This document shows, in pieces, positions 5,761 through 15,778 of a stretch of 64,000 bases of DNA (position 1 is its first letter; the number at the start of each line of letters is the position of its first letter). The stretch is from NCBI RefSeq assembly GCF_019459305.1, contig NZ_JAIBES010000153.1, forward strand, positions 1 to 64,000, in the 5' to 3' direction. Source of the stretch: Sphingopyxis sp. (GTDB lineage Bacteria > Pseudomonadota > Alphaproteobacteria > Sphingomonadales > Sphingomonadaceae). The translations under genes were made by a program, and so were the position numbers. The notes under the pieces were generated by a model that saw only the letters and a program-made list of their open reading frames with translations, did not search any database and was not told the DNA's origin.

Positions 5761-6921
5761 TCAGGTGACCCGCTCGACCACCATCGCCGCGCCAACCCCC
5801 ATCGCGCCGGTCAGCACGACCAGCCCGCACCGTCCACCACACGCATCGAGCGCGTCGAGCAAGGTCGAGGTCAGGATCGCACCGCTCGCCCCCATCGGAT
5901 GCCCCTTGGCCAGATGCCCGCCCGATACATTGACCCGCGCCGGATCGACGTCGCGGTCGCGCAGGAATTTGGCGATGGTGACGGCGAACGCCTCCATGAA
6001 CTCAATCCGATCGAAATCTGCGAGCGTCAGTCCGGTGCGCGCCAGAACCTTGTCCATCGCGGCGAAACCGGCGGTCAGCGATGCGGCGGGATCGCCGCCG
6101 CTTTCGGCAAAAGCCACCACGCGGGCGCGTGGGTGAGGGCCAAGATCTGCACCGCCGACGAGCGCCAAACCCGCGCCGTCGCATATCGGCGGGGCGTGCG
6201 CGATGCTGTGCAGCGGGGCAAAAGTCGCGCCTTCGAGCGCGCCCGCATATTGCTGTTGCAGTTCGCCGAACGCAGGCGAGGCGGCGGCGAGCGACTCTGC
6301 CGAGGTTTGCGGCCGGATGCATTCCTCGCCGGTGAGCGGTCCGGCGGCGATGCGCGATTGCTGGAGCGCGGCGTCGGCCTCCGTCGTCGCCGCCTTTTGC
6401 TGCGAGGCGAGAGCGACCGCGTCGAGTTCGGCGCGCGTGATTCCCTCGGCGTTGGCGAGCCGGTCGGCGGCGAGCACCGGCGGCACGAAGCGTGCGCGGG
6501 GCGGCAGTTCGTCATTGACATAGAACGCCGCGCCGTCGCCCAAAAAGGGCGTGCCGCTCATGGACTCGACGCCGCCCGCAAGAACACAGCTGGCTTCGCC
6601 GCTAGCGACCTTCGCTACCGCCTGTCCGATCGCGGACAGGCCCGAGGCGCAGTAATTGTTGATGCTGTGCGCGGCCATGGTGTCGGGCAGACCCGCATGC
6701 AGCTTGGCCAGCATCGCGATATGCCCGCCCTGCGCGCCGCTCTGCGTGACGCAGCCGAGCAACAGCGCATCGGGGATTGCGGCCATATCGCCGCATCGCG
6801 CCGCGAGCGCCGCCGCCTGCTGGCGCACCAATTCCTGCGGGCTCAGTCCGGCGAGCCCGCCGTCGGGCCGCGCCTTGCCGCGCGGGGTGCGAACGGCGTC
6901 GTAAAGATAGACGTCGGCCAA
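5761..6921 (-). CDS. Thiolase family protein lacking the second catalytic Cys
   Basis: About 386 aa, resembles degradative acetyl-CoA acyltransferases that cleave beta-ketoacyl-CoA. The nucleophile Cys is present in NNYCASGLSA and the catalytic His in GGHLAKGHPMGASG. The C-terminal CxGxG motif is missing: the aligned stretch reads VVLTGAMGVGAAMVVER, with Thr where the acid/base Cys should be. I start at the TTG 6921, one base after the stop of the upstream thiolase gene, giving MADVYLYDAVRTPRG, the normal thiolase N-terminus; no ATG fits. Last gene of the five-gene catabolic operon. Activity may be altered, or it may belong to a divergent subfamily. Confidence 0.8.
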   Translation of the reverse strand: MADVYLYDAVRTPRGKARPDGGLAGLSPQELVRQQAAALAARCGDMAAIPDALLLGCVTQSGAQGGHIAMLAKLHAGLPDTMAAHSINNYCASGLSAIGQAVAKVASGEASCVLAGGVESMSGTPFLGDGAAFYVNDELPPRARFVPPVLAADRLANAEGITRAELDAVALASQQKAATTEADAALQQSRIAAGPLTGEECIRPQTSAESLAAASPAFGELQQQYAGALEGATFAPLHSIAHAPPICDGAGLALVGGADLGPHPRARVVAFAESGGDPAASLTAGFAAMDKVLARTGLTLADFDRIEFMEAFAVTIAKFLRDRDVDPARVNVSGGHLAKGHPMGASGAILTSTLLDALDACGGRCGLVVLTGAMGVGAAMVVERVT

Positions 6922-6922
6922 A

Positions 6923-8152
6923 TCAGGTGCCGACGACGAAGCTGACCGCGGTCGTCGCGCTGCCGCCGACGTTGAAGGTCGCGAAATTCTTGGCGCCCTC
7001 GACCTGATAGTCACCCGCATTGCCGGTGACCTGCCGCCAGCTGTCGAGCAGCATCCGCACGCCCGTAGCGCCGACCGGATGACCGAGCCCGATCAGCCCG
7101 CCCGACGGATTGACCGGCAGCTTGCCGCCGAGCGCGATCGTGCCGTCTTCGATCGCGCGCCAGCTTTCGCCCGGCGGCGTGATGCCGAAATGGTCGATCG
7201 CCATATATTCGGTGATCGAGAAACAATCATGCACCTCGACCCCATCGCAGGCATAGACGTCGGGCATTTCCGCGCGGCGCAGCGCGTCCATCATCGCCGT
7301 GCGCACGCTGGGGAAGACATAGGGCTCGCCGCGGCTGCCCGCGACCTTGGTCGAATAGAGCAGGGGGGCGGTCGAATGGCCCCAACCCTTGATGCGCGGG
7401 ATGGCGTCGAAAGGGATCCCGCGGCGTTTGGCATAAGCCTCGGCAACCTCGCGTGAGGCGAGGAAGATGGCCGCGGCGCCGTCGGTGACCTGTCCACAAT
7501 CGGACTTGCGCAAGGAGCCTTCGATTCTAGGATTGACCTCGTCATTCTCGCCCAGATGGTCGTCGGTCACCGCCCAGGCGCGCGTCTGCGAATTGGGGTT
7601 TTTCTTTGCATTGGCGAAGTTGTTCGCCGAAATCGCGCGCAGATGCGCGCGATCGAGCCCGAAGCGTTCGTCATATTCTTCGGCAACGCGCGCAAACATC
7701 CACGGCCACAGATAGCGCGCTTCCTGCGCCTCGCGCCCCGCCCAGGCAGCGGCGCCGAGATATTCGGCGGCGCGCTGGCCGGGGACGTTGCGCATCAGCT
7801 CGATCCCGAGGACCAGCGCAAGTCCGTAGCGTTCGGCCTCGATTTCCGCCGCCGCCGCGAGAACAGCTATGCTGCCTGAGGCGCAGGCGGCTTCATGGCG
7901 CGAGGCGGGAACGCCCGCGAGGTCGGGGTGAACATGGCCAAAAAAGCCGCCGAGCTGGCCTTGTCCGGCAAATAATTCGCCGACGAAATTGCCGACATGC
8001 GCGGTCTCGACCTGTTTGGGTTCGATCCCGGTTGCTGCGAAAGCCGCTTCGGCAACATCACGGAACAGCTCGAACAGCCCGCCCCCCTCGCGCTCCATGT
8101 TGCGCGCAAAATCGCTCTGCGCGCCGCCGAGGATGAAGACGTCTTTCGCCAT
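6923..8152 (-). CDS. SCP-x-type thiolase (acetyl-CoA acetyltransferase family)
   Basis: 409 aa. Thiolase-fold enzyme of the sterol-carrier-protein-x type, which handles bulky or branched beta-ketoacyl-CoAs. Active-site Cys in HEAACASGSIA, His in VHDCFSITEYMA, and the GLGHPVGATG loop. The C-terminus NVGGSATTAVSFVV is typical of SCP-x proteins rather than classic thiolases. It follows the acyl-CoA ligase by one base and is followed by another thiolase one base later, so the operon encodes a thiolase pair. Such pairs are common in side-chain degradation of steroids and aromatics; the substrate here is unknown. Confidence 0.85.
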   Translation of the reverse strand: MAKDVFILGGAQSDFARNMEREGGGLFELFRDVAEAAFAATGIEPKQVETAHVGNFVGELFAGQGQLGGFFGHVHPDLAGVPASRHEAACASGSIAVLAAAAEIEAERYGLALVLGIELMRNVPGQRAAEYLGAAAWAGREAQEARYLWPWMFARVAEEYDERFGLDRAHLRAISANNFANAKKNPNSQTRAWAVTDDHLGENDEVNPRIEGSLRKSDCGQVTDGAAAIFLASREVAEAYAKRRGIPFDAIPRIKGWGHSTAPLLYSTKVAGSRGEPYVFPSVRTAMMDALRRAEMPDVYACDGVEVHDCFSITEYMAIDHFGITPPGESWRAIEDGTIALGGKLPVNPSGGLIGLGHPVGATGVRMLLDSWRQVTGNAGDYQVEGAKNFATFNVGGSATTAVSFVVGT

Positions 8153-8153
8153 G

Positions 8154-14718: not shown

Positions 14719-14736
14719 CGGCCTCTCCTCAGGGAA

Positions 14737-14761
14737 GAGGGAGCGCGGGCACCGCTCCCTC
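14737..14761 (+). terminator. Hairpin after the TonB receptor gene
   Basis: GAGGGAGCG (14737-14745) pairs perfectly with CGCTCCCTC (14753-14761) around a 7-base loop, 19 bases after the receptor stop. No long T run follows, so it may only slow or protect the transcript end. Confidence 0.45.
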
Positions 14762-14824
14762 TCCCGACCTTGCCTTGTCGATGTCGGGTCGCTGGGGTAG
14801 GGCGGCGGCGGAGCAAGGAATGGC

Positions 14825-15778
14825 TTGGGCTTGAAACACGATCGCACCATCAGGGCCTGTTCGATCTGGCGCGCGCTCGACGTGGTCGGCGATGTGCCGG
14901 TGCTGTTGCTGATGGAACAGGCGCTGCTCGGCATCCACAGCTTTGACGAATTTGTCGCGCGCACCGGCCTCGCCCGCTCGGTGGTCAACGGGCGCCTCAA
15001 AAAGCTGGTCGAGGAAGATTGCCTGGCGAAAGTGCCGCGCAAGGCCGGACGCGGCTTTCATTATGTGCTGACCCAAAAGGGGCGCGACCAGTTTCCCAAC
15101 GGCCTGATGATGCTACGCTGGCAGCACAAATGGGAAGCGGACAGCCGCGATTTTCAGGTTCATTTGCACCACGCTACGTGCGGCCATGCGACCGAACCGG
15201 TTCCGACCTGCGGCCATTGCCGCGCCGAGATCGACCCGCGCGACGTCGACTGGCGTGAAGGGCCGGGACTTGCGCAGGTCGTGCCGCATTATGAGCGTCG
15301 CCGTTTCAACGGCGACGTCGGCACCCGGCGTCCCGGTGGCCGCCCGCTGGTCGACACGATGATCGAGCTGTTCGGCGACCGCTGGGCGACGCTGGTCATC
15401 CGCGCGATGTTCACCCACATCAATCGCTTCGACGACATCCAGCGCGACACGCTGATGGCGACGAATATCCTGACGGGGCGATTGGAACGGTTGGTGCGGC
15501 AGGGGATCCTGCGCGCCGTCCCCTATTCCGACCGCGGCGACCGGTTTGAATATCGCCTGACCGCCAAGGGACGCGACCTTTATCCGGTGCTACTGGCGCT
15601 GCTGCAATGGGGCGACCGCTGGTTTTCGGACGAACGCGGCCCGCCGGTGCTGTTGACCCACCGCCCCTGCGGTCACGACCTGAATATGGTCGTCGCGTGC
15701 AGCCATTGCGGCGAGGAACTGCGGTTGGAGAACAGCCGTTTCACCGTCGAGCCGACAGAAACGCAGCCCACGAAATAA
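14825..15778 (+). CDS. Tandem HxlR-type transcriptional regulator
   Basis: 317 aa with two HxlR-like winged-helix domains in one chain (about residues 10-105 and 175-270). Each is followed by a similar Cys/His module: [14 protein letters not shown] near residue 120 and [14 protein letters not shown] near residue 282, which look like small metal-binding knuckles. Ordinary HxlR proteins are about 110-220 aa and act as dimers, so this may be a pseudo-dimer. Start: TTG at 14825, with AAGGA 6 bases upstream; the ATG at 14819 is out of frame and stops after four codons. Likely regulator of the adjacent receptor and catabolic operon. Confidence 0.8.

Follow-up and report, generated by a model that had tools for sequence, protein, structure and literature searches.

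A block of seven genes at positions 5761 to 15778 of a 64,000-nucleotide stretch of Sphingopyxis sp. DNA (the window) appears to be a horizontally exchangeable island for catabolism of a conjugated olefin. The most likely substrate is a short isoprenoid, such as an apocarotenoid-, ionone-, or abscisate-type acid or aldehyde, although our confidence in this reading as a whole is somewhat less than even. The block comprises an operon encoding an NPD-type flavoprotein, a carotenoid cleavage oxygenase (CCO), a ligase, an SCPx-type thiolase, and a second thiolase, together with a divergent TonB receptor gene and an HxlR regulator gene. The gene families, operon packing, island limits, behavior as a unit, linkage in other bacteria, and residue losses described below are read from the DNA and protein sequences.

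Gene calls and Pfam/NCBIfam profiles bore out the original prediction of five packed minus-strand genes beside a divergent TonB receptor and an HxlR regulator, at the positions first given. The minus-strand genes are predicted to encode an NPD/FabK-like FMN-type protein of the enoyl reductase or nitronate monooxygenase family (11340 to 12314), the CCO (9847 to 11343), an AMP-forming acyl-CoA ligase (ACS; 8154 to 9845), an SCP2/SCPx-type thiolase (SCPX; 6923 to 8152), and a divergent thiolase (THL; 5761 to 6921). NPD and CCO overlap by ATGA, and 1-base gaps separate CCO from ACS and ACS from SCPX. The long THL open reading frame (5761 to 7020) overlaps SCPX; an alternative TTG start at 6921, one base past the SCPX stop, gives a 386-amino-acid protein whose length matches several relatives. 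On the plus strand are the TonB-dependent receptor gene (12430 to 14718), whose start was picked by eye at the signal-peptide Met, and the regulator gene (14825 to 15778). Pfam detects one HxlR stretch in the window regulator and two in its Rhodoferax homologue, given which the description of the regulator as tandem was fair. The divergent promoter region (12315 to 12429) holds a candidate operator, CATAACG-N11-CGTTATG (12339 to 12363), whose arms match perfectly in the window and in eight near relatives only. A comparable repeat arose in 122 of 2,000 shuffles (6%), so the repeat argues only weakly for an operator.

A relative lacking the island (genome G011, locus L094) presents an unoccupied site, in which homology covers window positions 2879 to 5650 and then 15768 to 17873. 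This places the island at 5651 to 15767; both limits come from that single genome, and three further relatives place the right edge at the same point to within 5 bases. Among 80 Sphingopyxis genomes, 49 carry CCO and SCPX, 4 carry CCO alone, 1 carries SCPX alone, and 26 carry neither. Since the two genes co-occur in 49 of 80 genomes and are adjacent in 48 of those 49, their association is not due to chance. Judged by sequence comparison, the block is a discrete island that is gained or lost as one unit. Sphingopyxis alaskensis also carries it, with a CCO that is 94% identical to the window CCO.

The original prediction had proposed searching for the block elsewhere, and this search found the island in other Sphingopyxis and related gene kits in other groups and on plasmids. 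Homologues of the same genes often adjoin CCO relatives in other groups (59 to 68% identity) and on two plasmids (43 to 49%). At 28 loci with 61 to 68% CCO identity, the partners near CCO were SCPX (15 loci), THL (14), HxlR (8), NPD (5), and ligase (2); at 12 further loci, two of them from near relatives (79 to 85% identity), they were HxlR (10), SCPX (8), THL (7), ligase (6), and NPD (5). These families are thus linked repeatedly across alpha-, beta-, and gammaproteobacteria and on two plasmids, whereas partner genes were found in 0 of 20 control windows, all from one genome. Gain and loss as one unit and this repeated linkage together support a dedicated catabolic module. They also make it very unlikely that the block is a general fatty acid or stress locus with the CCO as an incidental member, even though thiolases and ligases are common enzymes and some CCOs stand without partners. 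In 7 of 52 near CCO loci, the CCO lacks enzyme partners and lies among unrelated genes (sulfatase, MFS, and LacI types at locus L029), and SCPX is missing from 4 of the 53 CCO-bearing Sphingopyxis genomes, so CCO can work outside the module. Both points, and the linkage of the ligase at only 2 of the 28 more distant loci, count against our preferred reading.

The CCO matches the RPE65 family (PF03055, 408.5 bits; cutoff, 27). As predicted, it has all four iron-binding histidines (His 183, 231, 295, and 479), which are invariant in an alignment of 25 sequences. Its AlphaFold model (pLDDT 92.7) matches the carotenoid cleavage oxygenase family fold. The RPE65 domain and the four histidines thus assign the predicted protein to the carotenoid cleavage oxygenase superfamily. 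The best solved match by sequence is the plant CCD1 9,10-dioxygenase (232 bits, compared with 163 bits for LsdA). In the fold search, CCD1 also ranked first but was barely separated from LsdA. This top solved match, the Osmanthus enzyme, is approximately 30% identical and, unlike the window CCO, has no catabolic operon. The lignostilbene dioxygenase model NF053778 (217.9 bits; cutoff, 800) and the 8'-apo-carotenoid 13,14-cleaving dioxygenase model NF052295 (215.6 bits; cutoff, 675) score the CCO alike, both far under their cutoffs.

Sphingomonads degrade lignin dimers, and the solved structures closest in fold include LsdA, PbLSD, LSD4, and NOV1. The block could serve catabolism of a stilbenoid or other styryl-aromatic compound, with the CCO cleaving a stilbene-type bond and the side chain passing to the CoA enzymes. 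An aldehyde dehydrogenase downstream of the block in one relative (locus L046) passes the phenylacetate PaaN model (TIGR02288, 602.5 bits; cutoff, 578.75), a function assigned by name only, which adds to this case. In LSD4, Tyr-101 and Lys-134 bind the 4-hydroxyl of lignostilbenes, according to PMC8191317. We took the residue names from that paper and matched LsdA positions by a uniform offset of one. The LsdA iron histidines and Phe-59 position are alike in the window CCO, but the Tyr-101 and Lys-134 positions are occupied by Leu and Tyr, and the residue alignment shows the phenol-binding pair to be absent from 52 of 52 non-LsdA sequences. This loss disfavors the lignostilbene reading. The lignostilbene dioxygenases LsdA, LSD4, and NOV1 share the fold of the window CCO and differ from it in the thiolase partners; to our knowledge, no lignostilbene route described so far includes two thiolases. 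We therefore regard a stilbenoid substrate as improbable.

Whole carotenoids or long apocarotenals of the apo-8'-carotenal type might instead be degraded, given the CCD1-like CCO and a Rhodoferax locus that has three CCO genes. The review PMC5133782 reports that SaCCO of S. alaskensis converts apo-8'-carotenal to apo-10' and apo-12' products, which favors this possibility. The same review states that beta-carotene and zeaxanthin are not cleaved by this enzyme and that carotenoid cleavage by a second S. alaskensis CCO was not seen in Escherichia coli, which speaks against it. We know the enzymes of Hoffmann et al. 2012 through PMC5133782 and PMC6097328, which in their available text discuss the enzymes alone, with no island or pathway; a locus tag was not found in the available part of PMC5643517. 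The S. alaskensis genome shows two CCO genes, namely, the island orthologue and a paralogue that is 29% identical. WP numbers follow one another in sequence across NC_008036, NC_008042, and NC_008043. We assume a gene count for the TM1040 chromosome, take that chromosome to be next in line, and place the S. alaskensis chromosome presumably after it. On this accession order and assumed chromosome order, SaCCO is probably the paralogue outside the island, and the island orthologue would then be the CCO reported as inactive. If this assignment is right, C40 carotenoids are disfavored. We thus consider degradation of carotenoids or long apocarotenals to be unlikely, to the same degree as that of stilbenoids.

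SCPX passes the NCBIfam model PRK06289 (668.1 bits; cutoff, 375), and carries the Cys, HDCF, and GHP motifs of that family; HDCF and GHP are in every row of the alignment shown. THL passes the Pfam thiolase cutoffs and TIGR01930 (244.3 bits; cutoff, 240.55), and its structure model has a pLDDT of 90.9. Classical thiolases use a Cys nucleophile, the Asn of NEAF, the His of GHP, and a C-terminal Cys as acid/base. THL departs from this residue set; it keeps the nucleophile and the GHP His, but the Asn is replaced by Met and the C-terminal Cys by Thr. All 12 alphaproteobacterial rows show the Asn-to-Met change, with Thr, Ser, or Phe at the C-terminal Cys; all 8 beta- and gammaproteobacterial rows keep both canonical residues. 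Ordinary thiolysis by the alphaproteobacterial THL is therefore doubtful. SCP2-type thiolases suit alpha-methyl-branched 3-oxoacyl-CoAs, and relatives of the block carry DUF1295/steroid-reductase-like and SnoaL-like companions; both observations would accommodate a conjugated substrate of another sort, for instance a terpenoid acid, a sterol side chain, or an alpha-methyl-branched diene acid of the polyketide type. SCPX, however, scores only 55 bits against the lipid-transfer model PRK07855, and the block has no steroid-ring genes. Such a compound is a minor possibility, slightly ahead of the stilbenoids and carotenoids.

For the favored short isoprenoid, we infer each reaction, the reaction order, and the substrate class from the predicted functions. 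The TonB receptor would import the compound, and the CCO, with O2, would split one conjugated double bond to give two carbonyl fragments. A general aldehyde dehydrogenase would yield the acid, which the ligase would convert to a CoA thioester; the ligase reaches no curated cutoff among its best 25 of 105 NCBIfam models. NPD passes PF03060 (65.5 bits; cutoff, 28), and its nearest solved structures are FabK-type enzymes and a putative nitroalkane dioxygenase. Acting as an FMN enoyl reductase, it would strip surplus double bonds, so that, in this proposal, an acyl-CoA dehydrogenase would not be needed; such an enzyme may be dispensable if the acid arrives unsaturated. Housekeeping enzymes would carry out hydration and 3-hydroxyacyl oxidation, the two thiolases would cut straight and alpha-methyl-branched 3-oxoacyl-CoAs, and HxlR would control the divergent promoters.

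Profiles detected no aldehyde dehydrogenase, hydratase, or acyl-CoA dehydrogenase gene within 5761 to 15778. This absence had been predicted and holds at the window locus; for aldehyde dehydrogenase it does not hold generally, since 7 sphingomonad loci of 94 examined carry one directly downstream, and a dedicated PaaN-type version could act in some of these sphingomonads. The island is therefore self-contained as a mobile unit but not in its chemistry. Companions at other loci include PaaN-type dehydrogenase, DUF1295/steroid-reductase-like, SDR, SnoaL/epoxide-hydrolase-like, and acyl-CoA dehydrogenase genes. The whole genome contains 17 ALDH-family matches and three strong 3-hydroxyacyl-CoA dehydrogenase domains among 9 matches.

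Clusters on Sphingopyxis granuli pRW412b and Cupriavidus necator NH9 pENH92 resemble the island in grouping HxlR-like regulator, ligase, NPD, CCO, and thiolase genes, at 27 to 56% identity. They differ from it in that no SCPX homologue was detected within the 25-kb stretches and in that both add SDR, aldehyde dehydrogenase, alpha/beta hydrolase, and MFS genes. pRW412b also has a TonB receptor and a ring-hydroxylating dioxygenase. pENH92 has TctC, porin, and MFS genes in place of the TonB receptor, pointing to a soluble acid as the substrate and counting against our preferred reading. The Rhodoferax locus with three CCO genes is L057, and a second locus, L060, has two; such multiple CCO genes suggest that the compound can be cut at more than one bond.

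The gene set is consistent with olefin breakdown by way of CoA thioesters. Of the route originally proposed, the module of uptake, double-bond cleavage, CoA activation, and thiolysis is supported, the stilbenoid substrate is disfavored, and the apocarotenoid or isoprenoid substrate is compatible but unproven. Abscisic acid as the named substrate was attractive but had no link in the sequence, and we set it aside. Novosphingobium sp. P6W was absent among 80 loci listed of 204 and 30 plasmid records listed of 32. Literature searches returned no description of the gene set. The block might encode the core of an undescribed bacterial route that mineralizes short apocarotenoids of the ionone/abscisic acid type, in which a CCD1-like CCO cuts first, the conjugated acid enters beta-oxidation already unsaturated with an FMN enoyl reductase replacing acyl-CoA dehydrogenase, and methyl branches are passed by an SCP2-type thiolase working in alternation with an altered-active-site thiolase. 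In this full form, the proposal is speculative and rather doubtful.

Knowledge of bacterial CCOs mostly concerns individual enzymes, and this operon, compact and assembled repeatedly, places them in a metabolic setting. For bacterial abscisate degradation, first-step mechanisms and enzymes are not established, according to the discussion in PMC9599779. Should the substrate prove to be an apocarotenoid, for example abscisate or ionone, the island would provide genes for a carbon flux whose metabolites are known but to which no enzymes have so far been assigned.

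The island (positions 5761 to 15778) carries five minus-strand genes in the order NPD/FabK-like flavoprotein (NPD), carotenoid cleavage oxygenase family enzyme (CCO), AMP-forming acyl-CoA ligase, SCP2/SCPx-type thiolase (SCPX) and divergent thiolase (THL; 5761 to 6921), joined by an ATGA overlap or 1-base gaps, and a plus-strand TonB receptor followed by an HxlR regulator. The gene set, minus-strand packing, receptor and regulator of the original prediction were all borne out on the window sequence. For THL, TTG 6921 is a more suitable start than 7020. The flanking genes encode a BtuB-like receptor (3311 to 5446, minus strand) and guaB (15846 onward, plus strand). 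Literature searches, with subscription journals mostly outside their coverage, found no description of this gene set.

The closest named relatives of the assembly containing the window (G000; 3.97 Mb, 155 contigs) are Sphingopyxis. Among 80 genomes of the genus, the CCO was found at an identity of at least 77% in 53 and an SCPX orthologue in 50: both genes occurred in 49, CCO only in 4, neither in 26, and SCPX only in a single genome that is 81% complete. The two genes are adjacent in 48 of the 49 genomes with both and lie on different contigs in the other. Eight island-less genomes were probed for guaB and the BtuB-like receptor, and stretches from four were compared with the window. In one (G011), homology stops at 5650 and restarts at 15768, with ~1.3 kb of other DNA, containing a 409-aa ORF that is transporter-like by eye, in place of the island. 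In the other three, guaB-side homology ends at 15772 to 15773, and the left side had no homology to the window within the stretch compared. The unoccupied site in G011 and the joint presence or absence across the 80 genomes bear out the earlier term 'self-contained' for the island as a mobile unit, though not for its chemistry. S. alaskensis RB2256 has all seven genes at 84 to 94% plus the BtuB-like receptor, and guaB is absent from the 19-kb stretch compared. Another genome (G026) has a CCO at 92%, yet merely 1.55 kb is homologous to the window block.

The search for the block in other sphingomonads, suggested earlier as a check, recovered all seven genes in 35 of 52 near loci (L003 to L054); NPD, ligase, SCPX and THL were all present at at least 50% in 40. 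Three of the 12 without the full enzyme set are truncated by contig ends (L027, L037 and L051), and seven of the 12 have a CCO without enzyme partners (L029, L030, L043, L048, L049, L050 and L052). A sulfatase adjoins the module-less CCO relatives (89 to 90% identical) in L029 (1252 to 2895), where it was typed, and in L030, where it was assigned by the same gene family; L029 also holds MFS and LacI-type genes beside the CCO. This hints that this CCO type may also act on a sulfated substrate.

The 28 distant loci (L055 to L082; CCO 61 to 68%; several on short contigs) are labelled Rhodobacteraceae, Phenylobacterium, Caulobacteraceae, Rhodoferax, Limnohabitans, Cellvibrionaceae, Zhongshania, Bermanella, Pseudomonas and others. 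Nearby partners were SCPX (15 loci), THL (14), HxlR (8), NPD (5) and ligase (2), with at least two partners in 11 of the 28. The Phenylobacterium CCO neighbours flagellin, tRNA-synthetase-like and NosD-like genes, apparently unrelated to the module. The neighbourhood of the Caulobacteraceae version includes genes for a haem-NO-binding protein and a hybrid histidine kinase (L081, 889 to 3025). Twelve further loci, two of them near relatives, were hand-chosen from 30 matching genomes among 196 of the order; here SCPX was nearby in 8, THL in 7, NPD in 5, ligase in 6 and HxlR in 10, and one locus (L135) had the CCO alone. Partner linkage was seen in none of 20 evenly spaced control windows from the single S. 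alaskensis genome at identical thresholds, which were chosen after data inspection; a thiolase in one control (L125), at a printed 33%, fell narrowly below threshold. Gene order varies between groups, and the linkage therefore reflects more than shared descent of one block.

With the CCO as tblastn query, 32 plasmid records matched, none at 60% or above. Three plasmid stretches were compared. Homologues were found on S. granuli pRW412b (CCO 43%, NPD 56%, ligase 43%, THL 39%, HxlR 27%) and on C. necator pENH92 (CCO 49%, NPD 56%, ligase 41%, THL 37%, HxlR 35%), where integrases adjoin the cluster. In Polaromonas sp. P1-6, the CCO lies amid hydrolases and TctC, and the single partner match is a weak ligase (26%).

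The solved sequences closest to the CCO are plant CCD1 (232 bits), VP14 (166), LsdA (163), PbLSD (156) and ACO (153 to 154); Foldseek placed CCD1 first and LsdA second, with similar TM-scores. In LSD4, Tyr-101 and Lys-134 contact the substrate 4-hydroxyl (PMC8191317). Neither residue occurs in these columns in any of 52 aligned CCOs (those of the window and of the second G000 gene, three from plasmids and 47 more from the family); the Phe-59 column holds Phe and, in a few sequences, Tyr.

S. alaskensis is reported to have two CCO genes, of which SaCCO alone cleaved carotenoids: apo-8'-carotenal gave apo-12' and apo-10' products, lycopene was cleaved poorly, and beta-carotene and zeaxanthin were not cleaved (PMC5133782). 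A figure legend in PMC6097328 identifies SaCCO as WP_011541991. At the search threshold used, the two CCOs of this genome are the island's and a 29 to 33% paralogue, and WP numbers follow genome order across three records. Extrapolation with genome sizes would probably place WP_011541991 at ~1.7 to 1.8 Mb, as the paralogue, versus 1.03 Mb for the island. If this holds, the island CCO would be the inactive S. alaskensis one. G000 encodes a second CCO (contig C34, 4267 to 5613; 31% identity), and among the matches listed many of the 80 Sphingopyxis genomes have a counterpart; this second CCO is possibly the orthologue of SaCCO.

CCO products are expected to be carbonyls, and no gene for the aldehyde step lies within the block. 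A putative aldehyde dehydrogenase, PaaN-type by profile match, directly follows the thiolase in L035, L036, L042, L044, L045, L046 and L047 (against the L046 copy, six of them show 74 to 78% identity). In Limnohabitans L066, two CCOs are followed by a relative at 48%. The earlier statement that the cluster lacks an aldehyde dehydrogenase is hence correct for this block and does not extend to its relatives, with such a gene near 8 of 94 loci searched. G000 has 17 ALDH-family matches and no orthologue of the PaaN-type dehydrogenase (best match, 30%). Companions in relatives include DUF1295 (family F5, typed in its L057 member; 10 of 44 clustered sources), SDR, SnoaL/LEH-like, esterase-like, lipocalin-like and acyl-CoA dehydrogenase genes; the one DUF1295 gene of G000 is outside the block. 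The richest module versions seen are long gene runs in Rhodoferax, with three CCO genes in L057 and two in L060, both also carrying DUF1295, TctC and an alpha/beta hydrolase.

A conjugated acid would enter beta-oxidation already unsaturated, which may account for the presence of a reductase (NPD) instead of a dehydrogenase, and the two thiolases might act in alternation on straight and methyl-branched units. Asn and a C-terminal Cys are catalytic residues of thiolases. In alphaproteobacterial THL, Asn is replaced by Met and the C-terminal Cys by Thr, Ser or Phe (12/12 rows), with the nucleophile kept in the module forms; in beta- and gammaproteobacterial THL, both positions are canonical (8/8 rows). 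This altered active site weakens the alternating-thiolase proposal, and judged by these residues a changed reaction is possible for alphaproteobacterial THL. The block itself is real, discrete, mobile and widespread, and its assigned function class is likely.
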